A model generated the notes under the pieces. It had not been told where the DNA came from and did not search any database. It saw only the letters and a program-made list of their open reading frames with translations. A stretch of DNA of 64,000 nt, taken from the NCBI GenBank assembly GCA_034190875.2, contig CM067343.1, positions 22,309,076 through 22,373,075 on the forward strand, read 5' to 3'. Of this stretch, positions 58 through 61,700 are shown one piece after another; within the stretch, counting starts at the first letter, position 1, and each line of letters opens with the position of its first letter. The DNA is from Urechis unicinctus (lineage: Eukaryota; Annelida; Polychaeta; Xenopneusta; Urechidae). The translations under genes and the position numbers were made by a program.

Positions 58-829
<772 letters not shown>

Positions 830-830
<1 letters not shown>

Positions 831-2389: not shown

Positions 2390-2564
2390 ATGTTTTAGTC
2401 AAAGATCTTGTTATAATAAGATACCCGACTCGGCAATTCGCACGACTAATTCCGTGACGCCGTGTAGGCAGCGCCCCCTACGTTTGTGGAAGCTACACGA
2501 CGCGCAACAGCCAACCAACTTCGTTATGACTCGCGAGTATGTTTGACAAGAAGTCAAACACAAA

Positions 2565-4150: not shown

Positions 4151-4479
4151 TTAGTAGTATAGAGAGTGGTGGTTCCGGCACCGTACCTCATCCACACTAC
4201 TCACCCCTCTGGCAGCTTATACAAGATATTTTTGCTCACTGTAAATAGCCTAGGACCCGACCCGCCAAACGGGACCGAGGGCCCTGCTAGTTTGTAGGTA
4301 AACTAGTGTGCCTATAGGCCAAGGTTTCTACGCCGAATATGACTAGCCCTTAGTCTTTCTTTGTCTTTAGGGTGGCTTTACACCTGTACGAATATATTTA
4401 GCCCCGGGATATCCTCTATGGTTTTTGCGTTTTGCCTGCCGGATAGACGGACTTTTAGATCACGGGTGCACTTCTTCAA

Positions 4480-5127
4480 CAGTTTGCCTTTCACAAGCTC
4501 GTGTGACACTTGCTAATAAGTACCTCTTGGCGATCCACTCGCTCCATAATATCATCGTTTTTAACCTACTGATCTCTCACCATGTCCTTCAGTTCCACAA
4601 GGTCATTGTAATTAATCTCCATATCAACATCAATCAGTGTCAGATCTATTATATCGTCTTCTATATAATCTGTATCTTACTTCAACTCATTAACACAACC
4701 TTCAAGTTCAGTAATACGCTCTTCGGTGTTCATTTCTGTATCTCATACCCTCGTTTATTCAATAGATCAGTATATACAGCATGCAAATGTCCGCGCAATT
4801 AAAATTATTCTGTATTGAGGCGGGTCAATATCATTAACAGTCGGCTCAATGGCAAAGAAGCACCCAATTTATGTCATATACCTTCCAATGGTTTGTCCTT
4901 TCCACGTTGGATCAGCGCCTTTTTTCATCAATTGAAACAGTCCTTTGCGCTTTTACAGATGTAGCCTTAATTTTGCCCTTCATTTGAGTATATTTTGTGA
5001 TCTCAGCTAAAATGATTTTAAACTCATGATCCGAGGTATTACCAGCTTCAAGTGCTGTTGATACAATGTCAGCAATGGAATTCATTTTGCTCTGCACTAG
5101 AATGCAGATCTGATCATGTTTTTTCAC
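4480..5127 (-). pseudogene. Relics of two small coiled-coil proteins of a Polinton-like module
   Basis: Minus strand 5127-4912 is an open 71-codon frame beginning KKHDQICILVQSK and continuing with NSIADIVSTALEAG. It resembles a small protein found near Polinton-type genes in invertebrates ('KHDKI..LAKSKLNSI' pattern), recalled from experience rather than searched. Just downstream, about 4728-4480 reads as an acidic coiled coil starting with MNTEERITELEG but interrupted by stops. The order and spacing fit consecutive small genes of one decayed element, together with the 0.8-2.4 kb relics on the same strand. Confidence 0.35.
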
Positions 5128-5129
5128 CT

Positions 5130-6500
5130 TGTCATTTTACTTGGCTTGCGCTTTCATAATTGTCGAATTTCTAGTCCATTTCTGCTATCTTGGATTAAAT
5201 AGAACTCAACATTATTTTTTAACTGAACTAAATAATTGTTGTTAAAATGTATTATTTATGATTTACATGTCAAATTTGGTGCTGAGTTCAATTTGTTTTA
5301 CCTGGTAATTAACGAATGCATTGCATGAATATCCTGTGCATCTCTGGGTTTGGTTATTGTGGCAACTGATGTACTTTACATAAAAATAGCCTGTTATTTG
5401 TAGTAGTGCAAGAGCAAGGGCCAAATGTTAATGGGATAAGCGAGATCAGAATTACCAAAAGTATTCAAACTGTGACTGGAGACATGTTGTATATATGAAT
5501 ATCATCTTTCATGCGCTCTATGCTTGTCAGACAATGCAGGGTGTCCAAAAAGATATATTTAATAGACAACGGTAACGACATATATGTCATTATTTTCTTA
5601 AATCGGCTTGCAATGCATAGGACTAGATTAAAAAACAAACGGAAAGGAAATTATATTTTAATTCTGTTTCTTGATGTATCTTGCGGAAAAAAGCACATTG
5701 AAACCTAATCAGTCACAAAGCTTGTGTCCGACAATTGCATCCATAATGTCCTAAGAGTTAAGATTACCGATTACCAGGCAGTGCCAGAATGTGACATTGT
5801 GACTGTCCGCTTCATTCTGTGTCATAATATAGTTCCAAGTTTTTCGCCAATACGTTATTTTACTAGAAAGTCTTACGAAATATAATATGAGCGAAAATTT
5901 GAATATTTATCAGCATGTCCGTTCGTTTACACGACGACGTCAGTGACCACAAAGAAATTTTGCTTTAATTCAGCCGCTGTTAAAAAGTTACAAAATTATG
6001 GGGGACCTTTTCAGTAAAATATCAATGGCTAGTCGCCACCCGAGGTAAGCTTTGATGCCAAGTCCCACATCTGAGTCTAGATGTTGGGGATTGCAAATCC
6101 TCTTCTTTATTGCCTTCGAATTGAACAGACAGAAGAATTGTTCGTTGAATACAGACACATGTGTTTCGTTTTGCTTCTTTTCACAATCAACGTTAATTTT
6201 GTTACCTTAACCGCATTGGCGCGTTGTTATAGCTTTGAGCTGTGGCACAATGACTTGATCATGCGGAAAATAGCAACTCTTCAGAACGTGCAGGATCTCT
6301 AATTTTATAAGATAATCATTGCAAAGTGTTCAACGTATTCGCCTTTCTTCGTCCAGTACATACACTGACCAACGACGACTGTCTGAAATCGGTGTATATT
6401 GATAAATACGAACTTATAACTGCACAGTTGTAAAATAACTCCAACATAGAATAATTGCAATTAACTACCCGAAGTAAGGATCCAGGGACTACCGTTATTT
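5130..6500. other. No gene seen
   Basis: AT-rich sequence with only short open frames of no recognisable character. I found no repeat shared with the rest of the window. Confidence 0.5.
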
Positions 6501-6609
6501 GATGTTATAAGCATTTTAATGGCGATTGCAGAGTATTCCTTGATAAACACGGGACATATCCCCGTTCTTCAGAGGATCAAATCGTTTTGTTGTGAAGAAG
6601 GCAAACATA

Positions 6610-7980
6610 TTGATGCGATGCCAAAGATGTTGTTGTTCATTGCAACAAAAAGAATCCCTGAAAGCATAGCTTGGACATTGTTTCATATTACGATGTACAA
6701 AGTCAAGATAGGACTGGAACGACCACGGGCTTTGTCACAATGAACTCAAAGCCGAGCATCCCTGAGGGATTTTGTGGCGGAATACCTCTGCACAGTAGAT
6801 TGGCTGAGACCAAAGATGTAGACAAAGATCACAGTGCCGACAAATATGAACCTAGCCGTGGATAACGACACCAAGTAATACATGTATGATATTGTGATGA
6901 TTGTCCGTTCAAGGCTGTTAAATGAGTAGTGCGTTATTTGTGAGGTAAAGGTTGTAATAATTGCTTATTTGCATAATTAATTATTAACATTTGGTTCGCT
7001 TGGCCGCTGTGCTTTATAAACTCAGCCTTTCATGTCTATACCGGCATTTATTGAACCTGTAAGTCGACCTTTTGTGTGAGATTTCAATACAGCACTCACC
7101 ATGACGCGGACGCCAAATATTCCTAAGAAAAACGGCGGCTAATACTTGCTAATATTTCACAAACATTTCGAAGCATTAATGAACCCATATTTTCTACCTA
7201 CCATCGATGTACCTACTCTCTCGTCATTGCTTAATCATTTCATCTAACTTATGCTGTGTGGGCGTTTTTGACGTGATATCAATGGTTGATGCTGACCATG
7301 ATTGTATTGACTCCATGGCTATCATGATATAAATCATCTGTTCTTACACTCATTGTGTAATTTCATATATTTTAAATAATGATATAAATCCATTGACCTA
7401 CAATCCAACTCAAAAATAGCAACGCTGTAGTTCTTTGACTCAACACACGAATATCACAAATGTCTTGGCTTCATCTCAACAAAATTTAAATGGGCCATCG
7501 TCCAAAAAATACCGCCGTTTCTCAGTGGATGGATTACTTCCGTGTGGCGAGGGCGAAAGTGTGCATGCACAGTTTACTGTTACATACACCCTCAGCTGGG
7601 AATCTCTCTGTGATTCGGTCGTAGAACACCTCGCACTTAGGCTTGGTATGGTAAAAATGTGTAAACAAATGACAAGGTGCTGCCAAATGCATATTTCCAA
7701 AAAGTGACCTACAGTTGTGATGAAGTCAAGTATATTGATGCCCGAGATGCCGTTGATCACACTTATCATCGCAGCAAAAGGAATCCCCGAAAGGATAGCT
7801 TGGACATCGTTTCATATTACGATGTACAAAGTCAAGATAGGACTGGAACGACCGTGGGCTTGGTGACAATAAACTCAAAGCCGAGCATTCCTGAGGAATT
7901 TTGTGGCAGAATACCTCTGCACAGTAGAAGACATCACGTGGCCCCAATAGCTCACTACCAGAATCTCCTATCTAGATACT
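6610..7980. repeat. Repeat block, first copies of two duplicated segments
   Basis: A segment around 6620-6800 recurs around 7760-7935 (shared 'tcatattacgatgtacaaag' and 'aaagccgagcat'). The segment 7130-7715 recurs at 8520-9110, offset by about 1390 bp (shared 'ctaccatcgatgtacctac' and 'cgtccaaaaaataccgccg'). The open frames inside are not conserved between copies. Confidence 0.75.
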
Positions 7981-8049
7981 GAAAAGGAGATAGAGGACAT
8001 TTTGCCTATCAAATTATTTCGAATCTTTACATCAATCAACGAGTAATTA

Positions 8050-8381
8050 TTATGGCTGCTTTACTAGAAATATATTCGCCCACTTTAATGGACACAACCA
8101 CGGAATCACGAGCCGCTCGATTACAACTAGAGCCAGTACAACTGCCAGACAGATGCCAACCGCATACTCGACGTCATAATTGAACATCTCAGCGGTGGTG
8201 GAAAGGACCATAATGGCGGACAGGAAAGACATCTGCAGACGAGCATTGTAGGCAGAATTCGGAATTGAAGGATTTCAACGAGGAATTGTCTAGTGGTGCA
8301 CTGTCGTCCCCAAGAGAATGCATGGTAGGCATCGATTAACAAGACGATCAGGAAGATGACGAAGACGATGTATTCAGACAA
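8050..8381 (-). CDS. Two short frames with predicted membrane helices, unrecognised
   Basis: Minus strand 8381-8127 begins SEYIVFVIFLIVLLIDAY, a plausible signal anchor. The overlapping frame 8232-8050 has VGICLAVVLALVVIERLVI, a plausible transmembrane helix. Together they could be exon pieces, or a frameshifted small membrane protein, located in the spacer between the two copies of the 7130/8520 duplication. I recognise no family. Hydrophobic frames are common by chance in T-rich sequence, so confidence is low. Confidence 0.2.
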
Positions 8382-8519
8382 GTGTTAGGCGTTCATTTCG
8401 TCGTTATCTACAATTATGTCATGATCGTCATATTCTCTTTCACCTTAATCGAGCTTGGATGTCTTAGTAAATCATCGTCGTGTAATAAATATATACCAAT
8501 GTATGTTTCTTGACCTCTG

Positions 8520-12800: not shown

Positions 12801-15800
12801 TGTTAATAATACAATGCATGGGAATAAGCAAGATAATCCTATTCAAAGTAACAAGTCATTTTGTTACCTGCAATCTCAATCCTATCCAGGCCATGCAACT
12901 TGCTTACTTCTCGAAGCATTTTCTGTACCATTTGTGTAACCACGCCGTATTTGAACTGTAATCTCACCACTTCAAAAACTTTCATGTCATGCCTATTTGC
13001 CTGGGACTGAGTCTCGAACATTGCATTTATCTTCGACACGAGATATCTGCTGGTGTGATGGTTATGCAAAGTCAAACTAGTCAATTGAAGCACGCCTGCC
13101 TCAGGTGACAGTAAGGGCAGCAAAGGGTGGGGATCTTGAAACTCACCTTCACAAAATAATTCTATGGCATACATTGGCCCTCCCGGATTTTTGCACCTTT
13201 CTGATTGAACTATTGCCCTCAACATCTGGTCGGCCTTAGTCAGGCAGCGATTACGCGTCATGCCATATAAACATTTCAGGATGTGCTGTCCATCTTTGCT
13301 TCCCAATAAACCAAGCGCAAACAGTAAGATAACATCAAGGTGGCCGTTATTGTCTTTGATAAGCGTGTCTATCTGTGCGACAGAGCAGTGCACTATGTCA
13401 AGCCCACCACACCACTCTAAGTTGGTGAGATGGGTGAACACATAAAAAATGCTGAAGTTATTGCCAGGATGTAGAGCGTCTTGTTTCTTGAATGACGTCA
13501 TGAGGGCACACGCTGTGATTTCCTCCACGGTTAGTCCACAGGATTTAACATCATCGTCTGTAAAGACTATGTGTTTCTTGGACAGTGACCCAAAATATTT
13601 CCTGACCAATTTTGTGAGTTTAAACAACAATTGTTTTACATGTGGATGCTTCCAAACTCTTTTGACGTCAAGCATTACAATACCCTTGAGTCTCAAACAT
13701 TGTTTAAGGACAGGTAGCATTTGACTTGAGTACAATGTTGATTTTGAATATGGTAGTTGATTCCAAGCATTTTCTGCACTTTGTGAAAGCCAGGAGATAT
13801 AAGAAAGCATTTTTTGTGCGTTGACAGGTATTCGAATGAGGCTGGCGATGTCGTGATTTGCATTTAGAATATTGATGTATTCATTCGCTAGTTCGGTTGG
13901 GAGGGTTTTTTGAACCAAAGATGTGACTGATTGAGAAGATAAGCCTGACAGCTCTGCCGTAGCATCAACAGGAAACTCTGTCTTTTCACATGGTCTGCTC
14001 GTCAGCAAAATCTGTGCCTTTGGGAAGAGGCTTCCACGGACGAGATTTGCAAGAATGACTTGGGGGTCTGCAATTGTTGTGGAATGGGCTACCTGTAATG
14101 AACAGGTCATAAAATCCTCCGTTTCGTCGTATCCATCTAAGATAAGAAGACACGTGTCCTGGTGCTCATCGAGCTCTGACATGAGTTTCGGTTTTTCTTC
14201 AATGCTAACAGACACACCGCAGTGATCCAACAGTAGGTCAGCTAGCGACAATGGAGTCATTTTCCCAAAATCAAGCTCCTTCATCGAGGTAAAGAAAACA
14301 TGCTGATAGACTTTCTTCCATTGGGCACGAGAATAACGATCTAAGATAGCTAGACAAAGAGACGACTTCCCCATTCCTGGCCCTCCCAGTAAAAGTACTG
14401 AACGAGGACGAGATTTTTCTTCAGGCGCCAGGAGTTCAGTTAATGTGACCTTGGTGCATGGTTCCTCTGCTATGGAAAACTCATAGATTCCTTGGCGGCT
14501 TTGGTAATCAGGCTTTGTTTTGCCATATGAAATAATGACAGGCTCGTGGTGCGCTATCTGCACCACATTGCCATATTGTCTGCGTTCAGCTTCGTCACTT
14601 TTGCGAATGCGTTCACAGTATTGCATCTTCAAGAGAGTTTTGAAAATAGCTAAACTAGTTATGTCTATGAATGGTGGGTATCGAAACAGCTTCTGCTTCA
14701 ACGCCGGCGGCAGTGTGACCAACTGCGTCTGCTCAGTGTGGTAGAATAGGGCAGCAAAAAAATGCCTACATGCCTCTTCACCTTTTTCCTGTAGAAACTC
14801 AACAAGTTTCCTGTTCTTCTCACAAGCTGTCTTCTTCTTGGACACACTGATTTGCCTGCGTGTAAAACTAACAATCTTCCTACATTTAGACACCAAAGTC
14901 TCTTCTTGAATTCTTTTCTTTTGCTCCTGTGTCAAAAGTGGACCCTTTAATGCCACAAGATAGTCTAGGATCTCACTTAAGCCGGTCAGTTTGTCGATGA
15001 TATTTTCCTTATTTGTAATGAGAAGGTCAAAGAACGTCTCATTGGTTTCCTGCAAAAGGAAAAAAAATAACAAATACTGCAACCGGTATACGTTAAATAT
15101 AAAGGCCCTCTCTTGATAAAATGCGATATTTCGAAGATGGTGCGGCTTTGGTGGCGGTGCTCGAGAAGCATGACGAACTGACAGCAAAGGATGAGAAGGA
15201 ATCAAATACTAGATGATGTCAGGGACAGGGTATGATTGATCCGATGTTACAATGAAACGGCTGATTTGGTGCATGAATTGGTATATCACATGGGTGGGGG
15301 AATTACCGTGATGAGATCGGATGGTATGAGAAGCATGATACATTAGGGCAGTAGTTTTGCATGAAGTATGAAGCATGGACGATGAAACGAAAGAACACAC
15401 AAAGGTGAGAGCGGCGATGGCCGAATGGCATAAAAGGCTTAAATAAACAAAACAGACAAACGTCAGCCATTGGCCGTTCTGGTTGTTTCTAAGTAACATC
15501 ATAGAGCAACAAACACCATTCCGACTAACCTGTGTCCCGTGATCAACACCAGTATAAGGCGAGGGTGCATGCGTGCCTTGCATTGAAAATTCCCTGTAGT
15601 TATCATCGTCACTATCCTCATCTGTAATGGCCATCCACTGAACTTCATTTCATTCAACAACCAACGAAACCACTTCATATATAAATTAAGCACCATTAAA
15701 TATATGTTGCATGTTGGATCCCAGACTCAATAGAACAAAATATTTACAAAAATGGTGCCAGATTTTAACCACAATATCGATAACTGGTGCCACATCTCAG

Positions 15801-40226: not shown

Positions 40227-40234
40227 CTATCGGT
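40227..40234 (+). repeat. Left target-site duplication (CTATCGGT)
   Basis: The exact 8-bp match to 46,423-46,430 flanks the 6.19-kb element. Removing the element leaves a single copy in the TEX264 upstream region. Confidence 0.85.
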
Positions 40235-40279
40235 AGGGGTGTCAGTGATTTTTTTCAAATTCATTGTATCTCAGTGAAA

Positions 40280-40965
40280 TTTTACATGAAGATAGGTATA
40301 CTCATGAGGATTCTAAAAAGGTATGTTTCATTCTTTTAAATTAATTAGTAAAAAAGTTATTGAGGTTTCAAATTTTATGGTATTGCTCGGTTTTGTGCCA
40401 GAATTGTACGGTAAGGGATAACAGCTGCTTTATATGTCTTATATTAAAAATATAATAGTGAAATTATACCACAAGAAATGTGTAATCCAGAGGATTCTTA
40501 TAAGCTATGTTTCATTTTTTAAGTCAATTAGTAAAAAGTTATTGAGGTTTAAAATTTTATGGTATTGCTCGGTTTTGTGCCAGAATTGTACGGTAAGAGA
40601 TAACAGCTGCTTTATATGTCTTATATTAAAAATATAATAGTGAAATTATACCACAAGAAATGTGTAATCTAGAGGATTCTTATAAGCTATGTTTCATTTT
40701 TTTAAGTCAATTAGTAAAAAAGTTATTGAGGTTTAAAATTTTATGGTATTGCTCGGTTTTGTGCCAGAATTGTACGGTAAGAGATAACAGCTGCTTTATG
40801 TCTTATATTTAAAATATAATAGTGAAATTATTCCACAAGAAATGTATAATCTAGAGGATTCTTATAAGCTATGTTTCATTTTTTTAAATCAATTAGTAAA
40901 AAAGTTATTGAGGTTTCAAATTCTATGGAATTGTCAGTTTTTGAGCCAAAATTGATAGGATGACA
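40280..40965. repeat. 183-bp subterminal tandem array
   Basis: Nearly four units, with 'ttattgaggttt' at about 40,357, 40,539, 40,723 and 40,905. Landmarks are 'ggtattgctcggttttgtg' and 'gataacagctgctttat'. Subterminal repeats are typical transposase-binding regions. That role is inferred here. Confidence 0.9.
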
Positions 40966-40978
40966 GCCACTTTTCAAG

Positions 40979-41100
40979 ATACCTGTCTGACATTGCCAAA
41001 CAATACTAATCTATTGCAACCAGACACCTGTCTGACATTGCCAAACAATATTAATCTATTGCAACCAGACACATATCTGAGATTGCCAAACAATGCTAAA
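40979..41100. repeat. 45-bp triplication
   Basis: Three in-phase copies of 'acctgtctgacattgccaa' plus 'acaatactaatctattgcaaccagac'. Being a multiple of 3, it creates a repetitive plus-strand frame. The minus-strand coiled-coil gene ends just beyond it at 41,104. Confidence 0.85.
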
Positions 41101-41103
41101 ACA

Positions 41104-41497
41104 TCAGGTGACCAAAATCTCAAAATCGCCTTTAGAGATGTCCTCATCCAGACGGTGAAATGTGTACACAGCATCATCCTCGTCATATACAATATTAAAC
41201 CAATCGCTGAACCCTGGTACCTGTGACACCACCTTGGCTGGATAAGCTATCCGTTCCTCTTTGCCATGGTATCTTCCCAGGCGACACCCCATTGTCCAAA
41301 AGATCATATATGCAAAGCTTGCATTCAGTTGAGATCAAATTGTTATGATCAAAATCCTTCAAGGTCGTCTCCATCCACTCATTTGTGGTTTGAAGCTCAT
41401 TGATCTCATTTCTACTTGCTACCAAATCCGCTTGCAGTTGATTTATCCTAGCATCTAATGCATTGTTATACGTACCAACTCCCAAACAAAAATACAC
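41104..41497 (-). pseudogene. Coiled-coil protein exon of the transposon, frameshifted
   Basis: Minus strand 41,497 onward reads as a coiled coil (ARINQLQADLVASRNEINEL, then LKDFDHNNLISTECK). It then continues in another frame as a compact domain with YHGKEERIAYPAKVV and DWFNIVYDEDDAVYTFHRL, ending LVT and a stop at 41,104. The two parts meet near 41,265 with a one-base frame change, so the copy is probably dead. The family is not recognised. The WFNIVYD module recalls small chromo/Tudor-like barrels, but that is a guess. It lies near the left end of the element. Confidence 0.45.
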
Positions 41498-42409
41498 TTA
41501 TAAACTATTGTCCAATAGTTATCAGCAATAGCATGTATTAACTAAACAGGCAGATAAAATGTCCTAGCAGCCTAACAAAATTTTCCTGGTCCAGACAAGT
41601 GCCATGCAACTTATTTGCCACACCCTTTATAAGATCGTTGAAATCGTCAAGTAACGATGAGAGATATATGGTTCGATTAAACCAGTGATGGTTGCAAGTC
41701 TGAGGTCACTCGCGTCTTAAAGCAAAAAAATTGTCAGATAGAGATTCAAATGCGAATTGTTTAACCGCAATGGTTATGAATATTTGGGTGCAATTACGCA
41801 GCTTATATAACACTGGGGCGAATGATAAACTCGGGATGTACTCCGTGAACGGATCTGACACAAAACGTGGTTAACATAATCTCTTTGATGTGTTAAATCT
41901 TGGTGGTGCCCTTGGTGACGAGCGGCTCGAGCAACCGTCGCAGTAACTGTCGGCAGCTCAACATCTACTCCGTCAACCCTAACTGCCGAATTCCACGCGC
42001 CAGCGCAAGCGCCATTTTGCCTTTGAAGTTACTGGCCTGTAACGGATATTTTTTTGAATCTACAACACCAAATAAATAAATCAGGTACCATATCCGTGAC
42101 CTTTTAAAGGTCAACTACAAAGATTTTTTTTATTCCATTTTTCCAAAGTTCTAAAAATTTTAAAAGGGTATCGTGACCAAAATAAGGTGACTGCGCGCTT
42201 TTTTTCTTTAAGAAAAATGATTTTTAAATGTATATTTCCCACGTCAAATCTGACAAGATACCGCTCGGTAAAATTCGTGAATTTCCGTACAGTGACGTCA
42301 TTCAGGTTGTTTGCGAATATTCATCGCCATCTTTAGCCTTCCCGGTTGGTTGACAGCGTGTGACTAACTCGTCTTTCTTCACGGTCTGGTGCGTTTCTTG
42401 GTGTGGATT

Positions 42410-43970
42410 ATGCCTTATTGTTGTGCGTTTGGTTGTCGGAACAATGAGAAGTCAGGCGTGATTTTATTTTGTTTCTAAAAGGCATATGCGCCGCATATGG
42501 GTGTCGAAAGTCAAGCGTAAACACTGGAGTCCTGCCCTTATAGTTATACGACAGTTCTATGTTCTGATCATTTCGAGAAAAGTGCTTATGAGACTGACCC
42601 AGAGCTGCTCAAAAGTCTAGGATTTCGTAAGAAACCTAGGCTCCGAAATGGTATTGGCAGCTGAGCAGATAGATAAATCAAGTGACAGTGGTGAATCACA
42701 GACCGAGGTGTCACACTCAAGTACTGCCGACCTAGGCTAGGCGAAGAAACTTCGCCTGTCAGCGTCCCGCGCTGTTTGCTACACCAGGGGCGAGTGCCTT
42801 GCCGTCTGCCGACCATGAAGCTTGCTCTCACTTGTCATTAGGGGTGCAGGCAAATGTTTTGGTGAGTGTCACAAGGCAACTGCATTATTATATATGATGA
42901 AATGCATTGGCAGGGATAACTTCTGTTGTATGTATCCATGTGTCTTTTCAGAGTCAATTTGTAAACATTTACATCCTTAAAGGCTATGATGAATGAAATT
43001 GTAGCATACTTATTGTATTGATACCATAGATGGCTGACAAGTCTCTACAGACTCAGAGTTCTATCTTTCCTGGCATAAAGAAATATTCAAGAGGTACCCA
43101 AGTTGGCCCATCTCACCAAAAGTGTCACCAGGGGCACCCAATATGAGCCCCAGGAGGAATCTGTTGGACTGGTGGACAGCGATGATGAGATGGAAACTGA
43201 CCCTGACTATGACTTCACTGACAAAGTGATGATGCTGAGATGGAAACTGATGATGACATGGCGTTTGAAGAACTGTTAGGTAAATATTGTTTTGTTTGTA
43301 GTGTAATCACATGGTTTTATTTGATGGAAGAAAAATTTAGCTCACAGAATGCTTATGTACAGTGGTGTTGATCTGGAGGATGGCCCTAGTCAGAATCAAA
43401 GATACCGGGGGAGTTTTGCTTGTTTTGAACAAATCGGCGTGAATGGACACCGTAAGATGTGGGATTGCCAACTTTTTACAGGAGCTATGCCCGCAGGGAA
43501 TTTGTTTATGGCTTCAGGGATTTTGTTAGTGGCAGTAGTGCTATTAGAACACTGAACATGTTCAGGTATGGGAAAATCCCAAGCCTGTCAAAGTACCAAT
43601 TTCTTTTGGTGTGAACATGCATTAATCTAAAATGAGACACATGTTATTTTGACATTTATTACCAAAACCTGAATAAGTTTCATTTGCACAAACATTGTTA
43701 CCCAATTAAAAATTGGCATATAATATAACTTACTTATTGTATGACTATCATAAAATATGAATATCATTGATTTGCTTCAGACTATGTACATCAGGTGCTT
43801 GATCTAAGGCAAAAATATCCAAGCTACAGACTTGCTGAGGTCCTTGCAGATGACAGGACTGTCCCACCACCTATTGCCTCCCAGTACGAGAAACCTGAAA
43901 AGGATCTTCTCGTAGGTGCTCACAGGTGTCGATTCAACCTGACAAAGAAATCTTCCGCTCCATTGTAGAT
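42410..43970 (+). pseudogene. THAP-domain transposase-like gene, multiply broken
   Basis: The frame starts at ATG 42,410 with MPYCCAFGCRNNEKSG, the C2-type opening of a THAP zinc finger (Cys-x2-4-Cys). After a frame change, SDHFEKSAY and GFRKKPRLR give the second zinc pair and the basic end. A Ser-rich linker (SSDSGESQTEVSHSS) is then split by a 74-bp insertion. Later pieces are an acidic exon (SDDEMETDPDYDF, 43,030-43,290), GHRKMWDCQ and GAMPAGNLFMASGILL near 43,435-43,560 with a frameshift after, and LAEVLADDRTVPPPIASQYE near 43,783-43,966. The GHR.(M/L)WDSQ...G.PAGN pattern occurs in THAP-type transposase-like proteins of invertebrates (recalled, not searched). No catalytic triad was placed. 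Confidence 0.65.
42732..42805. mobile_element. 74-bp nested insertion with 8-bp duplication
   Basis: Flanked by CTGCCGAC at 42,724-42,731 and 42,806-42,813, it interrupts the THAP gene. It matches the ends of 30,205-30,326 (AAGAAACT hairpin and CCAGGGGCGAGTGCCTT). This is a miniature element in a very short form. Confidence 0.7.
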
Positions 43971-45096
43971 AACCTGTATATTTGCCGCCTGGGTCAGGGA
44001 AGGATTTTCTAACAGCTGTTACCACACAGGCTGCCAGACACTTTCCTGTTTCTTTTGCCCAGTCTGTGCCATATCCAGAGTGTAAACTGGCAGTAAGCTA
44101 GATACCTGAATAATCTGAAGCAATATGTCAATTAGTTGTCTATGGTTTTAAAATAAGTTGTATAGCTAAAAAAACAATTGTCATTTGTCAACCATTCCCT
44201 CACTTCATAATTTTATTGTAAGCTCTGCCTCTGGAGTTCATGTAACTGGCATTATTTATTCTTGGCTATGTAAAATATATTGTAGTTCATCAATATGAAC
44301 ACTGAATATTTTACACAGTGGAATTAATGTTCCCTTTGTAATAAATATGATTGTTCAACCTCAAACCATCCTTTTGGGTAGCAATAATGGCTAACTTACT
44401 CATTGTAGAGACCTCATCTCCAACAGGTCTGTCCATTTGAATAGATTCAAATTTGGACACTTCCAGCACATTTTTATTCATGCAGCTAGCCAGGAATCTG
44501 GGATGCTTGGTGATGCATGTCCATTCCTCCGTTAGAGCCATCACTCTCTCCAAACTTCTGTGGCTGTGTTCATTGGGATGCAGTAATGACATCTACACCT
44601 AAGTTAGAGAAATAATTAAAGAGTCATTGTAAATTTATATTTGTGGTACAATGAATGAATATAAAAGGAAAATACTTTATAAACTGCATGCAAACATCTG
44701 TCCACAATATTCAATGTGCTCAGGGTACAATGACAAAGCTACATTCACAAGCCAAGTACTATTTGTTGTAGTAGTTAGGTCTGTCAACATACCATCCTCT
44801 ACTTACAGAATGTGTAAATTTATTGGGTAAATGAAACTAACGATTATTTTTTACCAGTTAATATAGTTCAATAAAGCTTGGGAAGTGTATTCTAAAACTT
44901 ACCATTCAACGAAATCTTTTGTTGATTCTTCATCCGAAGCGGACCCTTGAGTTAGACTTAGAGCTCCCGGTGTCATTTCGTAGTGTGACTTGGATTTTTC
45001 AACTCCCGTCCGTATTGGCTCTAATAAATAGTCATGGACATGATTTGCCCCAATGTTATGCTATGGGGACTCGTAAACTTCATCAGAAGACGACAT
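43804..45096 (-). pseudogene. P2X7 intracellular-domain-like gene (no channel part), broken
   Basis: Three exon-like pieces on minus. Piece a (45,096-44,903) opens MSSSDEVYESP, hits an in-frame TAG at codon 12 and continues acidic to a TG|gtaag donor. Piece b (from 44,598) completes a Trp codon and gives CRCHYCIPM, then in another frame EEWTCITKHPRFLASCMNK. Piece c (from about 44,105) gives YLAYCQFTLWIWHRL, then after a frameshift CVVTAVRKSFPDPGGKYTGY. This is the order of the zinc-binding cysteine domain at the C-terminus of P2X7 (CxCxxC..M, CIT.HP.F...C, AYRQF..W, C...IR..FP...G.Y.GF). There is no P2X channel sequence. Free-standing relatives are abundant in some invertebrates and fish. One stop and two frameshifts mark this copy as dead. 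Confidence 0.75.
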
Positions 45097-45404
45097 GGCT
45101 TGTCAAAACGGTGTAATTTTAAAATCCAAACAATCGTTTTTCGCTTCGCTCGCTCGCAGTCAAATTCTCTTGGAGGCAGCGCAGCAGGAATGACGTCACG
45201 CAACGTGCACCTAGCGGCCAACTGAGGCAAAATGGCATCGAGAAGATGGCTTCGTATTTTCTTCCGAATGAAACCTTATCGGTGGATTTTTAGTACTTAT
45301 GCATGCCGTTGCAATGAATAATGGGTCCCCGTTGGTTTATGAGTTATTAATCTTCAATTTGAAACACATTATAAAGAAATGATGAAAATCGTTGTAGTTG
45401 ACCT

Positions 45405-45752
45405 CGATTCGAAAATAAACTTTACCAAAGTGTTTCACTAAACTTGAATTATCCCCGTATATAGATGAATGTTAGGGGTCAGACTAAAAAATGAATGAAA
45501 ATCGACTTTTTCTGACCCCACGCAACAGCCGCGTAAGCGATCTTGAGTTGGCCGTGTGAAGGCAAGATATGCGCTCTCCCGGCGCGGGTATGACAAAATC
45601 GAACATTTTAAAGTTTAAAATTCAACAAAACATTTCCAATCGATTCGAAAATAAACTTTACCAAAGTGTTTCACTAAACTTGAATTATCCCCGTATATAG
45701 ATGGATGTTAGGGGTCAGAATAAAAAATGAATGAAAATCGACTTTTTCTGAC
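45405..45752. repeat. Right subterminal repeat, two copies
   Basis: A 110-bp segment at 45,405-45,515 recurs at 45,643-45,752 (shared 'aaataaactttaccaaagtg' and 'gaatgaaaatcgactttttc'). It is the counterpart of the left subterminal array but unrelated in sequence. Confidence 0.85.
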
Positions 45753-46422
45753 GACGCACAATCAACGGTGGTTGCGAGCGTGCGCAGCCGTGTTGAGTGA
45801 AGGCAAGGTTGACCCTGATACGGGCGCACGCAGCGAGCATGAGATGATTGGACGACATTTTGAAGTGCAAAATACGACAAAACATTACCATTTAATCTGG
45901 AAAAAAAAACTCACCCATTTGTAACATCATACTTATATTTGTCAAAAGTGAGCACCTATTTCGCGGGTGTCTGATAAAATTGGGAAAAAAATACATTTGT
46001 TTGCACCGTAATATTTCGTAATTAAATAATATTATTTTCCCTTTGGCCAATTTTTTTAGATTTTATATGATCATGAACATTAGAATGTCAGCTTGTCATT
46101 TACTAAACAATAAAAACGATAAGAGTAACGAATACGAACCGATATAGAGAATTAAAAACGGAGTGAATCTCGAAAAGTCAAAAATGCTCGCCGAGAATTT
46201 TAACGTATTGCTCCACAAACACACATTTTTTATGGTTCAAACGGAGTAAAATGCGAAAAGTAAGACAATATTATTGAAATTCAATACGTTAGCTGTCGTT
46301 TGATATATAATTCGTCCATGTATCTTAAATATGAATGCCCGTCATAGCAAGTTGAAAAAACTTGGAAATAACATTGAGGCACAAGCGCGGCCGCCTGTGG
46401 CGGGGTTCGGCTGACACCCCTA

Positions 46423-46430
46423 CTATCGGT
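46423..46430 (+). repeat. Right target-site duplication (CTATCGGT)
   Basis: Exact partner of 40,227-40,234, directly after the CTGACACCCCTA end of the element. Confidence 0.85.
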
Positions 46431-49555: not shown

Positions 49556-52500
49556 ATTATATATCCGTCAACGATTTCGGAACAAATTTCATTTTGTGTA
49601 ATGAATCCATCATATTGAAAGTCTCACCTCCGAAGCCCCAGGCAATCCGTAGCTAACATAAACTTCAGACATGGCATTCCATTAATATCATGATATTGAC
49701 AAGTAATTTAACTGACTGGACTCTGAGAAATGACATTCCATTAATATCATGATATTGGCAAGTAATTTAACTGACTGGACTCTGAGACATGGCATTCCAT
49801 CAAGGGCAGATATCGTGAAGTACAATGAATTGGCTAAATCAGCACAAGTAAAAATCATTGATTCATGATATTGACGAGAACTTCAATTAACTTGACTAAT
49901 AGATATCGGAAGTCTATTTGTTCCGTGTATCTTGTGTCGTTGACACTCTAGCAATAAACTCGTTCGTAACTCAATCAGTTTACTGTGTTCTGCTTTTTGC
50001 CTTCAGGTCTGTGATAAATCAAAGACACACTGTAATAAAAACAATCATCTATTATTTGAAGATAAGGACTGGTAAATGAGTGCCTTCCATTAATCGCTTA
50101 CATTTAAATACATTGGTATAGAATCACACCCCGCTCTTGAAATATCGGACAAAACACAGTCCATTTGATTAATTGCCACACTTGCCCCCGAGCCACTGCA
50201 GCACTTACCATGATGCATGTCCCATTAATTTGTATCACCCGAGGACACGCTCTTGGCCCTTGAAATTGTAAAACTTGACCTTTCCTCTTTTACTGCTGAA
50301 TTTGTCAACTAAAAAGACTCTAATTACATTGAGCCATTAAGTGCATGCCTGCTATGTATTTTCGTTGTTTAACGAACAGTTGCAGTGACAACAATGCTGG
50401 ATTGCTCATTGTTAGCGTGGTATATTTTGATTACATATCAATGCTATATAATTTGATCAAGGTATGATAGCGTAGCTATTTGTCCATTGTCTTAGTACAC
50501 GCGACAATGTAGTCATTCTCTACTTGAATGTCTGCATGCGTCCCAGGATATTATATGCTATACACGATTATACCTGCTTGCTATCGATTGTATAGGGGTA
50601 TAATGGGATTACCATTTGAGTTGTAGCCCTGGGGGCTTGTGGTGCGCCGTAAACTTAACTATCACCAGAGCTTTGAAGAACGGGGCATCGTCATTTGAGC
50701 AGGCCGGTTTGCTCACTTTGATGAAGTAAATGTGACCTTTGCCTGGTACAGCTTGAATAGGTATGAAAAAGATTCAACATGACGAGATGCATTACCTGAA
50801 AGAGATAACAATATCAATGACACAATAATCAATAAGATTGGTAGTTCAAGTAATGGAATGATCATGGAGACTCATTTGTGAAATTTCACTGTAATATCTT
50901 ATATATTGAAGTTATGCTCCAAACTACAATTCAATCGTACTATTATGCATACCTTGAAAACCATTTATAAGAAGTAATCAGCGAACTGATTGGACCGCAC
51001 ACGAAATCTATCAATTAATTCAATGATTGGACCAACCGTCCCAGATTTTCTTCCTGATTATACGTTCGATATTTGTTTTGGTAGCACAATTAATTCTGGC
51101 CTTTCAATCCATCACGCTGATTGTCTCACCTCTAAGACCCCTGACCAATGGAATGGATAGCTATCCGTACTTCACATAGACCACATATATTCGTACTTCA
51201 CATGGACCACACATATTCGATTCAATCAAACGACAGACTTGAGGTTGGTCAACATAGCACAAGTAAGAATATGTTGTGTCAAGATTTAACCAGAATACTA
51301 GTAAAAACATTCCCAGCAGAAATCGAACCACAGCGAGATTGCAGCTAATTTCGCGGTCGGATACATGTCCGTTATGACAGCGGAGCTATTTGTCCACTAA
51401 CTTAGTACTCGCGTCAAAGTGATTATTTTCTAAAATGGATATTATGTACTAATCATCGGGCTTTTTTTCTAAAATGGCACAAGAAGTTATGCTCCTCACT
51501 ACAATCCAATCGTACTTTAATGCATACCTTGAAACCCATTTATAAGAAGTCATCAGCGATAAGACCGCACACGAAACCTATCAATTAATTCAATGATTAG
51601 ACCAACCGTCCCCGATTTTCTCTCTGATTATACGGTCGATATTTGTTTTGGTCGCACAAATATTCCTGACCTTTCAATCCATCACGCCGATTGTCTCACC
51701 TCTAGGTCCTCTGCCTAATGGAATGGATAGCTATCCGTACTTCACATAGACCTCATATATTCGATTCAATCAAACGACAGACCTGAGGTTGGTCAACATA
51801 ACGCAAGAAAAAATATGGACGCTAAAGCTTTGTATTGCAGTGAATATATCAATATTTGTTATATATGTTGTGTCAAGATTAAACTAGAATACCAGTAAAT
51901 ACATTCCCTGCGGAAATCGAACCAAAGTGACATTGTAGCTGAAGTTTGCGGTTGGATACATTCACGAGGTCAGTTCATCTAATTCGTTCAAGGAGATATA
52001 ATGCTGATATTCAGAGTAAGCATTTTACGTGTGCAAAATAACTATTAAACTGTCACCTCACGTTCCCGGTTGATCTGACATCTAATTCTCACTTTACTGA
52101 TGGGATATATATTATGCTCGGCTTTCATTAAAAAATATTTCGGTCCCTGTTAAAATGCTTGTCATGCGAGGGGACGATTTAGAGATGGAAGTATAGCACT
52201 ATAGAAATATCACATGGCCTACAGACAACCGATATTTTAGCCGGTTTCTGGCTTTGGATTCTCCCGTTGTAAACTTGGGGAAGTCTCTTGTTCAAACTCG
52301 CATTGAGTATAATTCAGAAAAATTTAATCGCTTATGGGTGTCAGAAAACCGATACGCGTGTATTTTTTATTAATCATAAGTTGGAATTCCAACACGTAGG
52401 ATTATGGCAGTGAGCAGTAATCTAGAGCTCATGGTTTACCGTCGTTTATTTATTGTCCATTTATATGTTGGCCAAAAAACCTTAACCGACTTCTTAATGC

Positions 52501-55500
52501 AAAGAAAAACGAGAAATAATATTCGTCAAAGTAATCATAATATGACATTATCAGCGCGTGCGTACTTTATATTATCGCTTACACGAAAACATGGAGAGTT
52601 TCTGGGCAATCATAAAATCATTTATACATCAAATGGCTGAACTAATGGGATTGTGTATGCGATTCACTTGTAAATTAATTAAAACCATGACGCCTGTGTA
52701 TAAGTAGTTAACTTTAATTACCATGTAACATGCAAATGGCGCGCAAAACTAAACGCATATAAACACTAAGGAGGCATTAAGCAGTCACCAGGTGACCAAG
52801 TGGAGTCTATCAGTCTGAGCGTTAGATTTGATGTGTGGGCAATGATTGGACTTTTCATCTCCAAAAGGCATATTACACAATGGAATTGAAGTGCATTTAT
52901 AAGTTCGCTTTAATTGTTTCGTTTTATTTCAGTAATAAATATAGGAATTAATATTCTTAAACCAGTTCGCACCAGATCGTGTTTGAATTACAACGTTTGT
53001 GCACATTCTCGACGCCATGTTTCCTTACGTCATTGCGTCTCGCATCTTCGTTCTGTATTAACGTAATAGAACTATTGAATGATTCGTTGCTAATCTGCCT
53101 TGCCTACTGCAAATGGTGTATGCGACAACAGGAAACTTCATATAATAGAGAGACGATGAAAAACAGATTTCTGTCATGAACGATGTAATATGAAATGAGA
53201 ATGTGTCTTGTGACCCAACAATTGGTTTTCAAGTTTTTCAAGGTTATTTCGTTTTACATTTAAGTTTAAATCCTCGACGAAATGGTGACTGGTGTGCAAT
53301 GCCGCAATCCAGAGCTCGCCACATCAGACTCAAGTCTAAATCAAATCACCTCGGTGTATCTCCTGTATCTTAATGTAAAGTTCACTAGCGCCAATCAAAT
53401 GCATCTAAGTGACTTTGTAACGGAGAAATAAATGTTCACCCTAAGATAGGACATTATTTGCGGTGAATGAAACCCGAAGAAGAGAAATACGAAAAATAAC
53501 AAAAAACGTAAGGAAACTTACATTAGTGACTAACATATTCTGCTTTAAACAAAAGCAACTTATCCTTACATTAACTTAAATTTTATTTTAATATGAACAA
53601 ACTGTTCGGTGTTGGATATGCTGAATAACGATGGAGCAGATAACATGCTTAAATGTTGATTGGACTGCTGCACTGTTTACCATTCCGATGGAATATGAAC
53701 AGCCCCTGGAACCGCTTATCCATGAATAGCCATACTAAATTTGGCATATCAGAGCATTTGTAGAAAACCATAGCAACTGTAAATGAACATAGATTTCACT
53801 TATAAGCAGTATCGCACACTATCACAGGCTTAAATCTTTGTGCGGTACTAGATAACAGGCTTACCAGCAGATCTGGCAGAAGATTGCAGGGCAAATGAAA
53901 CGAATAAAACATTCCTTCTCTCGCAAATTTCAATGTAAGCTATTTTGAATTGAGGCGCATTCGACCTACAACCAAGAGGGCCATGTGTCTGCCCCGGTAG
54001 GTATAATAAGTTTCGTTTTACAACATTCCTAGACTTGCAATCATGCATTAAATATCAATGAGATTACCTACTTTGCCAAAGCCTGCCTTTGCAGGGGGAA
54101 GATTTATTGGGTCGTAGGTTTTCAGATATCTCAACGTAACGCGAGATCTACTGCATTTGACTCTCATCTTGTCAGAATTTATGCATGTTTCATAAGCTGC
54201 GAATACATATATGCTCAGCGCGACGGCGTGATAAACCATGAATAGCTTTTCTCTATAAAGCTGCTGCGTTGTTAAATGATGCGTCCATGTATACCAAACA
54301 TGAACAACGTGACTGCCCATCATTGCGCAATGTTAACTAGCAACGTCAACTGAACTTGTCAAGATATTAAAATAGACTTAGCAATACAAAAAAAACAGAC
54401 TGACAAGAATATAGAACTTGCAAAATGATACATTGTTTGATGTTCGATTGGTCTACAGCAGGTAATCAGGCGAGATGAGAATGCCCAATCTTTCAATTGC
54501 TGACTGTTTGTTTTGTACTTTCAGACATTTATAAATGGGAACGTCTACCATCTTGGTTCTATACAACACCCGTTAAGTATCTTATGTATTACAACTCAAC
54601 AATATACATGCCACGCTTTCCCTCGACTACCAATGAATAATGGTACATGCAAGTTATGGATCACGATTTAGCGCGTACGCAAGGACTTTCATTCTTGACG
54701 GGCAGTGATTCTCCGACGCTTCCTAGAATACAAGTTGTGATGATCTCCTGCCTCATGTGACAGATATATGGTCGGTATGGTGTTATTGCCTTTAGTGGAA
54801 ATGACTCGTCTTTTATCGAGATTGCCCCAATTTGAAGATTGCTGAAAGAGTTTTTCTCCGTGGTCGCTGTGTAGGAATATCTATTATGGGTGTGGTCTTT
54901 GTTGTCATCAGCGAGCGATAAACCTACTTTTCTCTCTTAATCATCCTAGATAGGGTTGTTCCTACAAAACCCAATTGTGCATTTCGGGCGTGGTTGTCAT
55001 ACCTCAATTTGATATAAGTTTAGGTTCATAGACCAACAACAAAGCTCATAACGTGCATTTTAGTTAGAAACAAAGATTTTATTATCTTATCAATATTCGT
55101 AACAAGCATAGCCGTATATTCGTGAGATATCATTGAAACATTGGCTTGGTGATGTGGGTCACTACTTTATCACGTATCATTCTGGATTGGCAATTCTGAG
55201 TAATGTCTATACACCACATGATGTAGATATTTTGTAACCAGCGGTAGTGAACATCATGTGATGGAGACAAAGTTCAACAGGACACCATTGAGCCTCCTCA
55301 GACGACATGAGCCGTTTTAATTGGGAAATGCAAGAAAAAGACCCCACTAGCTACTTGGGAAGCCTGTATTCCCATGAATGTCAACTTTAATCATGGTTGC
55401 AGCTTAAATCATCCCGTAAAACTTAATTGCTCCTGGCTAATAAATATTGGGCGTGATGATTGCTTCGTGTATCTGGGCTGCTTGTGAAGCGGCACGATAG

Positions 55501-55710: not shown

Positions 55711-58700
55711 AAGATTATATATCCGTCAACTATTTCGGAACAAATTTCATTCTGTGGTATGAACCCATCGTATTGATTGTCTCACTTCCGAAGCCCAATG
55801 CAATCCGTAGCTAACATAAACTTCAGACATGGAATTCCATTAATATCATGAAATTGACAAGTAATTTAACTGACTGGACTCTGAGACATGGTATTCCATC
55901 AAGGGCAGATATCGTGAAGTGCAATGAATTGGCTAAATCAGCACAAGTAAAAATCATTGATTCATGATATTGACGAGAACTTCAATTAACTTAACTAATA
56001 GACATCGGAAGTCTATTTGTTACGTGTATCTTGTGTCGTTGACACTCTAGCAATAAACTCGTTCGTAACTCAATCAGTTTACTGTGTTCTGCTTTTTGCC
56101 TTCAGGTCTGTGATAAATCAAAGACACACTGTAATAAAAACAATCGCCAGACTGGGATCTATTATTTGAAGATAAGGACTGGTAAATGAGTGCCTTCCAT
56201 TAATCGCTTACATTTAAATACATTGGTATAGAATCACACCCCGCTCTTGAAATATCGGACAAAACACAGTCCATTTGATTGAATGCCACACTTGCCCCCG
56301 AGCCACTGCAGCACTTACCATGATGCATGTCCCATTAATTTGTATCACCCGAGGACACGCTCTTGGCCCTTGAAATTGTAAAACTTGACCTTTCCTCTTT
56401 TACTGCTGAATTTGTCAACTAAAAAGACTCTAATTACATTGAGCCATTAAGTGCATGCCTGCTATGTATTTTCGTTGTTTAACAAACAGTTGCAGTGACA
56501 ACAATGCTGGATTGCTCATTGTTAGCGTGGTATATTTTGATTACATATCAATGCTATATAATTTGATCAAGGTATGATAGCGTAGCTATTTGTCCATTGT
56601 CTTAGTACACGCGACAATGTAGTCATTCTTTACTTGAATGTCTGCATGCGTCCCAGGATATTATATGCTATACACGATTATACCTGCTTGCTATCGATTG
56701 TATAGGGGTATAATGGGATTACCATTTGAGTTGTAGCCCTGGGGGCTTGTGGTGCGCCGTAAACTTAACTATCACAAGAGCTTTGAAGAACGGGGCATCG
56801 TCATTTGAGCAGGCCGGTTTGCTCACTTTGATGAAGTAAATGTGACCTTTGCCTGGTAAAGCTTGAATAGGTATGAAAACTATTCAACATGACGAGATGC
56901 ATTACCTGAAAGAGATAACAATATCAATGACACAATAATCAATAAGATTGATAGTTCAAGTAACGGAATGATCATGGAGACTCATTTGTGAAATTTCACT
57001 GTAATATCTTATATATTGAAGTTATGCTCCAAACTACAATTCAATCGTACTATTATGCATACCTTGAAAACCATTTATACGAAGTAATCAGCGAACCGAT
57101 TGGACGCACACGAAATCTATCTATTAATTCAATGATTGGACCAACCGACCCAGATTTTCTTCCTGATTATACGTTCGATATTTGTTTTGGTAGCACAATT
57201 AATTCTGGCCTTGCAATCTATCACGCTGATTGTCTCACCTCTAAGACCCCTGACCAATGGAATGGATAGCTATCCGTACTTCACATAGACCACACATATT
57301 CGTACTTCACATAGACCACACATATTCGATTCAATCAAACGACAGACTTGAGGTTGGTCAACATAGCACAAGTAAGAATATGTTGTGTCAAGATTTAACC
57401 AGAATACTAGTAAATACATTCCCAGCAGAAATCGAACCACAGCGAGATTGCAGCTAATTTCGCGGTCGGATACATGTCCGTTATGACAGCGGAGCTATTT
57501 GTCCACTAACTTAGTACTCGCGTCAAAGTGATTATTTTCTAAAATGGATATTATGTACTAATCATCGGGCTTTTGAAGTTATGCTCCTCACTACAATCCA
57601 ATCGTACTTTAATGCATACCTTGAAACCCATTTATAAGAAGTCATCAGCGATAAGACGGCACACGAAACCTATCAATTAATTCAATGATTGGACCAACCG
57701 ACCCAGATTTTCTTCCTGATTATACGTTCGATATTTGCTTTGGTCGCACAAATATTCCTGACCTTTCAATCCATCACGCCGATTGTCTCACCTCTAGGTC
57801 ATCTGCCTAATGGAATGGATAGCTATCCGTACTTCACATAGACCTCATATATTCGATTCAATCAAACGACAGACCTGAGGTTGGTCAACATAACGCAAGT
57901 AAGAATATGGACGCTAAAGCTTTGTATTGCAGTCAATATATCAATATTTGTTATATATGTCAAGATTAAACTAGAATACCAGTAAATACATTCCCTGCGG
58001 AAATCGAACCAAAGTGACATTGTAGCTGAAGTTTGCGGTTGGATACATTCACGAGGCCAGCTCATCTAATTCGTTCAAGGAGATAAAATGCTGATATTCA
58101 GAGTAGGCATTTTACGTGTGCAAAATAACTATTAAACTGTCACCTCACGTTCCCGGTTGATATGACATCTAATTCTCACTTTACTGATGTGATATATATT
58201 ATGCTCGGCTTTCATTAAACAATATTTCGGTCCCTGTTAAAACGCTTGTCATGCGAGGGGACGATTTAGAGATGGAAGTATAGAACTATAGAAATATCAC
58301 ATGGCCTACAGACAACCGATATTTTAGCCGCTTTCTGGCTTTGAATTCTCCCGTTGTAAACTTGGGGAAGTCTCTTGTTCAAACTCGCATTGAGTAAAAT
58401 TCAGGAAAATTTAATCACTTATGGGTGTCAAAAAACCGACACGTGTGTAGTTTTTATTAATAATAAGTTGGAATTCCAACACGTAGGATTATGGCAGTGA
58501 GCAGTAATCTAGAGCTCATGGTTTACCGTCGTTTCTTTATTGTCTATTTATATGTTGGCCAAAAACCTTAACCAACTTCTTAATGCAAAGAAAAACGAGA
58601 AATAATATTCGTCAAAGTAATCATAATATGACATTATCAGCGCGTGCGTACTTTATATTATCGCTTACACGAAAACATGGAGAGTTTCCGGGCAACCATA

Positions 58701-61700
58701 AAATCAATTATACATCAAATGGCTGAATCTAATGGGATCGTGTATGCGATTCACTTGTAAATTAATTAAAACCATGACGCCCGTGTATAAGTAGTTAACT
58801 TAAATTACCATGTAACATGCAAATGGCGCGCAAAACTAAACGCATATAAACACTAAGGACGCATTAAGCAGTCACCAGGTGACCAAATGGAGTCTATCAG
58901 TCTGAGCGTTAGATTTGATGTGTGGGCAATGATTGGACTTTTCATCTCCAAAAGGCATATTACACAATGGAATTGAAGCGCATTTATAAGTTCGCTTTAA
59001 TTGTTTCGTTTTATTTCAGTAATAAATATAGGAATTAATATTCTTAAACCAGTTCGCACCAGATCGTGTTTGAATTACAACGTTTGTGCACATTCTCGCC
59101 GCCATGTTTCCTTACGTCATTGCGTCTCGCATCTTCGTTCTGTATTAACGTAATAGAACTATTGAATGATGCGTTGCTAATCTGCCTTGCCTACTGCAAA
59201 TGGTGTATGCGACAACAGGAAGCTTCATATAATAGAGAGACGATGAAAAACAGATTTCTGTCATGAACGATGTAATATGAAACGAGAATGTCTCTTGTGA
59301 CTCAACAATTGGTTTTCAAGTTTTTCAAGGTTATTTCGTTTTACATTTAAGTTTAAATCCTCGACGATATGGTGACTGGTGTGTAATGCCGCAATCCATA
59401 GCTCGCCACATCAGACTCAAGTCTAAATCAAATCACCTGGGTGTATCTCCTGTATCTTAACGTAAAGTTCACTAGCGCCAATCAACTGCATCTAAGTGAC
59501 TTTGTAACGGAGAAAAAAATGTTCACCCTAAGACAGGACATTATTTGCGGAGAATGAAACCCGAGGAAGAAAAACACGAAAAATAACAAAAAACGTAAGG
59601 AAACTTACATTATTGATAAACATATTCTGCTTAAAACGAAAGCAACTTATCCTCACACATTAACGAAGAGGCAAAGCCAAATTTTATGTTTCTATGAACA
59701 GACTGTTCGGTGCTGAATAAAGGTGGAGCAGATAACATGCTTAAATGTTGATTTGACTACTGCGCTGTTCACCATTCCGATGGAATATGAGCAGCACCTG
59801 GAACTGCTTTTCCACGAATAGCCAAACTAAATTTGACATATAAGAGCATTTGTAGAAACTGTAAATGAACATGGATTTCACTTATAATCAGTATCGAACA
59901 CTATCTCAATTTTTCCAGTCTTAAATCTTTGTGCGATACTTGATAATAAGCTTACCAGCAGATCAGGCCGAAGATTGCAGGGCAAACGAAACGCATTTTA
60001 TTGTAAGTTATGTTTTGTATCGAGCCGCATTCGTCTTACAACCAAGATGGCCATGTATATGCCCCAGTAGGTATTATAAGTTTTGTTTAACAACATTCCT
60101 AGCCTAGCAACTATGCAATAAGTATCAATGGGATTACCTGCTTTGCCAAAGCCTACCCGTGCAAGGGAAGTACTGATTGGGTTGTAGGTTTTCCGATATC
60201 TCAAAGTAACGTGAGGTCTACTGCTTTTGATTCTCATCTTTTCAGAATTTATGCAGTTTCATAAGCTACGAATGCATATATGCACAGAGAGACTGCGTGA
60301 TAAACCATCAATTGCTCTTCTCAATCAGGGCGCTGCGTTGGTAAATAATACGTCCTTGTATACCCTACCTGAACAAAGTGACCGGCCATCATTGCGCACT
60401 CTATGCCGACAACTTAACTTTTCAAGACATTACAAGGCTCTACGTTACTGGATACGTTCCCGTTGGTCTGCCCTTCCAGAGTTCAAGCGATTAAAAAAAC
60501 AGACTGACAAGAATATGGAACATGCCAAATGAAGCTTGACCTCGTGTTTCGTGGCTTTGGCAATAGATGATTGCATATCCACACTGGCCAATGTAGTTTA
60601 ATGTGCAGACATCTTCTACACGCACTTTATCAATGCATTAAGATGGGCTCGGCAAGATTATTCCAATAAGCATATTTTTGCACAACGAGATATTGCCTGT
60701 CGTCAATTGGACGTATCACTGGTTAGATCATTCGACACTGTAAGGTATTGGTTAGCACAAAATAAGTGGACAACAGAACGTACCAGGACCAGCGTAAGTT
60801 TGTGCTTAGGTATTGCTTTATGAGTGTGCCACACAATGCTGGAAGTAGTGTGATCAAGAAATCAGAATTGAGCATAAATAGAAATGACAGATAGATGCGG
60901 ACATGCCTCACACCACGCATCTAGCAGCTGCATAGCAAATCACTAGCAGCATGGCAGCTTGTCGGATACACTGTTTGATGGTCTGCAGCAGTTAAAATGG
61001 TAGTTAGACGAAATGAGACAGAATGCCTAATCTTTATATTGCTCACTGTTTTGTGAAGTTTCAGACAGTTATAATGGGGAAGTCTGCCATCTGGGTTCTA
61101 TACAAAACCCGCAAAGTATTTTCATTATTACAGCTCAACATAACAATGCCACGCTATCCCTCGGCTACCAATGAATAATGGTACATGCAAGTTATGGATC
61201 ACCATTTAGTTCGAACGCAGAGACGTGAAAGTGTTTGCATGTTGACCCAGTTATGTTATCATGTATCGAGCAGCTGCTTTACCCAAATCAATGGACATAC
61301 GGCTGAGGAATGAATAGGACTCCACTAAAAAGACAAAATTGTGAATGGTCACTGCCATATATCTTAACTATCCATAATAATTGAACATACTAGTAAACGT
61401 AAGCTTTATGCACTCTGTCAAATATGAAATACTAGAAGCATGGTCTAATTCATAATATATTCCGTGATAAGGGTTACCTTTGATGGTGAACTGCCTTGTT
61501 TTGTTTGTTGAAGTACGAATTAACCATACGTTGATTTCATACTGATGCGCTAATAACCTTTGATGCAAATGATATTTGCTCGCAATAGAAAAGCCCGCCG
61601 TCACAACAGTGATATATGGGCAAATATCAAGGACTTTCACTTTATGCATTCATTCTTGATGGGCAGTAATTTATAGACGCTTCCTAGAATACAAGTGGTG

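Follow-up and report, generated by a model that had tools for sequence, protein, structure and literature searches.

A non-autonomous Kolobok transposon with a broken P2X7-type gene inside a hAT-like transposon of Urechis unicinctus

Kolobok DNA transposons duplicate TTAA at their target and have 5'-RR..YY-3' termini, unlike piggyBac, and the Kol0 lineage of Kolobok encodes KolX, a protein with a P2X7 ballast fold (PMC9587614, 2022). The P2X7-type domain, also called ZCD, is present across animals in genes that are syntenic with two markers, according to PMC7016195, a paper in whose main text "transpos" does not occur. Here, we analyze a locus of the annelid Urechis unicinctus in which a P2X7-type gene and a THAP-transposase gene lie between one pair of inverted termini. 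The window, meaning the whole stretch of 64,000 nucleotides that was analyzed, is C2:22309076-22373075 within a 1.19-Gb genome of 926 contigs. A preliminary description read the locus as a single 6.19-kb insertion with three protein genes on two strands, in which the P2X7-type gene would be transposon cargo or encode an accessory protein, an association that it did not know as a described system. We find that the locus is almost certainly a nested pair: a non-autonomous Kolobok at 42108-45404 (the inner element) that entered, at a TTAA site, a hAT-like transposon at 40234-46422 (the outer element). The hAT-like transposon is unrelated to the Kolobok, and this copy of it is likewise non-autonomous. 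The P2X7 domain does ride on transposons, and the transposon is Kolobok, not the outer element. The link between KolX and the P2X7 domain is already in print for Kol0-lineage Kolobok (PMC9587614), so the association is a described one.

The outer element has a perfect 12-bp inverted repeat at its two ends, TAGGGGTGTCAG at 40234-40245 (plus strand) and CTGACACCCCTA at 46411-46422 (minus strand), which bears out the short inverted termini first described. Its start is 40234, one base before the 40235 given earlier. The query for the genome search was the 30-base left terminus, with up to three mismatches allowed, and the reversed pattern was used as the control. This terminus gave 113 + 119 = 232 matches, compared to 0 + 0 for the control. 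One hundred of the 232 matches were listed, and 64 of those listed were exact, the window included. From the 63 other exact listed matches, 20 copies were taken as the sample, each with about 8 kb of sequence, and a 21st (L053) was added for its nearby P2X7-type gene. When a copy had several candidate right ends, the best-matching flank was taken by script. A 7-bp target duplication was exact in 12 of the 20 copies and carried one or two mismatches in three; the right end was not found in the remaining five. L053 has a 7-bp duplication too. Of the 12 exact cases, seven showed no eighth matching base in the shift that was examined. In the window, the duplication is CTATCGG, in direct orientation outside the inverted repeats (40227-40233 and 46423-46429), with its length taken from the other copies. 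The exact duplication reported before is therefore real and 7 bp long; it looked like 8 bp because the terminal T of the element matches by chance. The reported 183-bp array was also found, as a subterminal tandem array with a unit of about 182 bp at 40306-40954 that is common to other outer copies.

Nineteen of the 20 sampled outer copies cross the site of the inner element without containing it. Their two flanks adjoin, the gap between the matches being -2 to 44 bp. The 20th copy (L019) is uninformative, matching only as far as window position 40977. By blastn (E up to 1e-8), none of the 20 showed a match, however short, to window 42109-45403. Both flanks of the nearest copy, L009, are 99% identical to those in the window, and the uninterrupted TTAA site reads CCTTTTAA joined to ATGACATAATG / CCTTTTAA joined to ATGACATAATGCTGG. 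The corresponding TTAA in the window is at 42104-42107, immediately to the left of the inner element.

The inner element, 3,297 bp on the plus strand, begins directly after this TTAA with AGGTCAACTACAA and finishes with TTGTAGTTGACCT. Its termini form a 32-nt inverted repeat with 81% identity (42108-42139, plus strand; 45373-45404, minus strand). In the genome search with the inner element, 40 of 2049 candidates were scored. The inner stretch alone as query gave 46 pieces, and outside the window at least 29 places align with bases 1-3297 end to end, with 95-99% identity. The ends were inspected in 10 of the 29 full-length places, and each of these copies has an identical 4 bp outside its termini (TTAA in nine, TAAA in one), with flanks unrelated between places. 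The copy with TAAA on both sides is G000:C9:75468157-75471408. Because the inner stretch has end-to-end copies with 4-bp duplications of their own, it is a transposon in its own right, and the locus is not one insertion but a transposon within a transposon. Over the aligned bases, four sister copies share about 98-99% identity with the inner element of the window; one of these, L052, is missing its first 55 bases. piggyBac was considered for the inner element because of the TTAA duplication, and was rejected since AG..CT termini do not fit it. The termini are AGGTC..GACCT in the window and in all 10 inspected copies, in agreement with the 5'-RR / YY-3' ends of Kolobok. These AG..CT termini, together with a piece of transposase described below, argue for the inner element being a Kolobok. 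The locus thus holds two units that have separate copies and different duplications, with an uninterrupted site in other outer copies, and the genes are broken here.

One could instead propose a single composite transposon that has captured a host P2X7-type gene as cargo. A single pair of inverted termini with a target duplication does enclose a P2X7-type gene here, and such genes are highly multiplied in this genome: the genome search with PF20478 (P2RX7_C; cut-off 23.5 bits), in which 150 of 2592 candidates were scored, gave at least 150 matches, all flagged as over the cut-off, compared to none in 14 control genomes. However, the gene is absent from the 19 copies with these termini that cross the site, and in the 21st copy the P2X7-type gene is outside. 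Termini whose other copies do not contain the gene are a result that the preliminary description had itself named as refuting its proposal. Among the 100 listed outer termini, a single one has a listed P2RX7_C match less than 10 kb away, in a listing from which the window's own broken gene is absent and which would therefore overlook other broken ones. This near miss for cargo is L053 (terminus C9:65421396), where the match is about 4.1 kb off, at coordinates 3812-4150 of the oriented copy. The right end of the L053 copy is at 2853 bp, followed by its 7-bp duplication CCCCAAC, which leaves the gene about 960 bp outside it, a case of proximity and not of cargo. At all 10 other places inspected, moreover, the inner stretch is delimited by termini of its own and a 4-bp duplication. 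Uninterrupted sites and independent copies of the inner stretch together refute a composite transposon, which we regard as extremely unlikely.

A different possibility is that the whole outer unit moved again after the nesting, so that the Kolobok genes spread as passengers of the hAT-like element. Around the nested unit, the outer termini and their 7-bp duplication have stayed intact, and the 6.19-kb unit is therefore mobilizable in principle. When the 100 listed outer termini (of 232) were compared with the 40 listed inner places (of 2049 candidates), only the pair in the window lay less than 10 kb apart, and no second nested pair was present. Such onward movement is, in our judgment, very improbable.

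Two genes of the nested Kolobok, on opposite strands, account for the THAP/transposase and P2X7-type genes, and the catalytic half of the transposase seems to have been lost. The plus strand carries a THAP domain followed by an N-terminal piece of a Kolobok-type transposase, frameshifted in the window (42413-43611; catalytic half not found). The THAP domain of the window scores E 0.031 on one piece and 5.6e-13 on the read-through. In L050, an unmended 101-aa frame reaches E 4.7e-7, over the cut-off. The transposase piece of another sister copy, L049, resembles relatives of the transposase of a related element (L054, below), the best in a set of 20 being P0139 (E 1.8e-9). The minus strand carries the P2X7-type (KolX) gene in pieces, probably as three exons, at 43950-45096, with approximate limits. 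Its read-through, with X at the breaks, matches PF20478 at E 6.6e-5 and 23.3 bits, just below the cut-off, and its last exon alone at E 0.037. A search of solved structures with the broken KolX of the window gave only chance matches, the best being ribosomal L18 (E 0.054). An unmended frame of L050 matches P2RX7_C at E 4.4e-7, over the cut-off. The claim of three protein genes on two strands therefore holds in that pieces of three were found, one of them in the outer element, as described below; all are broken relics, and they come from two elements.

The gene content also agrees with the described system. According to PMC9587614, Kol0 Kolobok shares with the inner element the TTAA duplication, the AG..CT termini, and a transposase gene beside a KolX gene. 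The KolX gene with a P2X7 ballast domain that marks the Kol0 lineage is seen in the window read-through, just below the cut-off, and above it in sister copy L050 and in the related element L054. The inner family differs from Kol0 Kolobok in being a 3.3-kb derivative with broken genes and in having a THAP domain before the transposase piece. KolobokP, which has direct terminal repeats and a His-Me nuclease according to that paper, is a different lineage from the inner element.

If two host genes, one P2X7-like and the other with THAP, merely happened to be near transposon termini, the synteny of ZCD genes with two markers across animals (PMC7016195) would fit. However, both genes are inside a unit that is repeated at full length, with 95-99% identity, in at least 29 other places, and the same KolX frame break is present in all four copies in which both frames were found. 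Chance proximity of host genes has practically no likelihood. The break is a frame offset that falls between the cysteine and KHPRFL motifs, and it is identical in each of the four copies with both motifs; in L049, the first motif was not found. Given this shared offset and the high identity of the sister copies, the 3.3-kb family seems to have spread with KolX already broken. If so, its movement would have depended in trans on a Kolobok transposase produced from another place in the genome. KolX itself may be an accessory protein of Kolobok transposition.

Several observations weigh against a Kolobok nested in the outer element. In the window, the inner element has lost its right TTAA, so there is no perfect duplication around the nested insertion. 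At this right junction (45405-45531), TTAA and about 25 bp of the L009 site are missing, and a piece of a 236-bp repeat of the outer element is there instead. This change is probably a rearrangement with the adjacent 236-bp repeat units. Unless read through, the broken genes in the window itself give weak Pfam matches. In the five copies read, no catalytic half of the inner transposase, which would hold the DDD/E and C/DxxH residues, was recognized. Also, no full-length parent sharing the termini of the 3.3-kb family turned up, although no genome-wide count of those termini stands behind this statement.

Open KolX frames are present in the same genome. The 150 listed PF20478 matches (150 of 2592 candidates scored) all lie more than 5 kb from the 40 listed inner places, among which is that of the window. 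A KolX as broken as that of the 3.3-kb family is thus not reached by this listing, which therefore does not speak against broken KolX elsewhere. Three of the 150 loci, picked for similar scores and 169-aa frames, were fetched. These loci (L054, L055, and L056, continuing in L057, L058, and L059, respectively) share one 6.8-kb unit with 96-97% identity, which at L054 occupies 2379-8401 and continues in L057. The unit has TTAA on both sides and termini that read AGAGGCTGTTCAGCC / near-complementary, and its flanks differ between loci. Its KolX frame is free of stops at all three. At L054, the 169-aa KolX matches PF20478 with E 7.6e-29 and solved P2X7 chains with E 2.5e-16. The opposite strand of L054 has a 299-aa transposase frame with 20 relatives, for which Pfam gave two matches of equal weakness, one Mutator-like (PF20700, 19.6 bits compared to a cut-off of 26.5) and one to Stereocilin. 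The layout is similar to that of the inner element, with transposase and KolX on opposite strands. Since its termini differ from those of the inner family, this Kolobok-type element is a relative and not the parent. The earlier proposal of a P2X7-type accessory gene in a DNA transposon thus holds in another form, for the nested Kolobok, whose relative has an open KolX frame at three dispersed loci, and fails for the outer element.

The remaining interest of the locus is the outer transposase. It is uninterrupted in the outer copy L017 (712-2856, minus strand), where a core similar to Hermes, a hAT transposase, is joined to a C-terminal Spindlin-type domain. The core has a Hermes-like RNase H fold with a helical insertion. 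Homologues were found in bivalves, other animals, and metagenomes, and one homologue, P0004, retains all four positions of the aromatic cage in its Spindlin-type domain. In the window, only a relic is left (41107-41479, minus strand), with a piece similar to residues 174-254 of P0002 and a C-terminal Spin/Ssty piece that corresponds to residues 663-715 of the L017 protein. The latter matches Spin-Ssty PF02513 at E 1.9e-4, under its cut-off, and the catalytic core is missing. Relatives such as L017 may have supplied, in trans, the Spindlin-domain transposase that moved the outer copy of the window.

The target duplication of hAT elements is usually 8 bp, in contrast to the 7 bp of the outer element. 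Their transposases have a C-terminal hAT dimerization region and an N-terminal BED finger, whereas the outer transposase ends in the Spindlin-type domain, and a Pfam scan of the 786-aa L017 frame, which lacks the N-terminal exons not recovered for that copy, gave neither. The P superfamily, which is marked by a THAP domain, the P element fold, and duplications of 7 or 8 bp, was considered because of the THAP domain and the 7-bp duplication. Galileo of this superfamily (PMC2775673) resembles the outer element in its 7-bp duplication and internally repetitive ends. The P superfamily was set aside once THAP proved to be part of the inner element and the outer transposase to be closer to Hermes. 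Among titles and the openings of abstracts, no paper concerning a Spindlin-domain transposase was found, and neither spindlin nor Ssty occurs in the main text of PMC10294476 on bivalve transposons. We tentatively suggest, as a possibility that we consider less than even, that the outer element represents a widespread, undescribed hAT-like lineage with 7-bp duplications. At its C-terminus, the transposase of this lineage would carry a Spindlin-type reader of histones, which would steer insertion to chromatin with methylated H3. The analogy is with chromodomains, which guide some retrotransposon integrases to chromatin. A transposase joined to a Spindlin-type domain is a directly testable case of possible chromatin-guided insertion.

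Phage records gave no match to the element, as expected. Elsewhere in the window, a tandem duplication of about 4.6 kb with 93% identity (49726-54372 and 55825-60435) is followed by further partial copies to the window's end. On the minus strand at 12842-15208, a 789-aa open frame with NACHT (PF05729, E 9.4e-21) and CARD (PF00619, E 1.2e-6) domains encodes an NLR-like innate immunity protein.

The analysis removes an apparent new system and puts a known one in its place: according to PMC9587614, the P2X7 domain in animals is an accessory protein that belongs to Kolobok. In this genome, KolX is present in broken form at many places and as open frames inside the 6.8-kb elements. Carriage by Kolobok offers a reason for the multitude of free-standing P2X7-type genes in such genomes.

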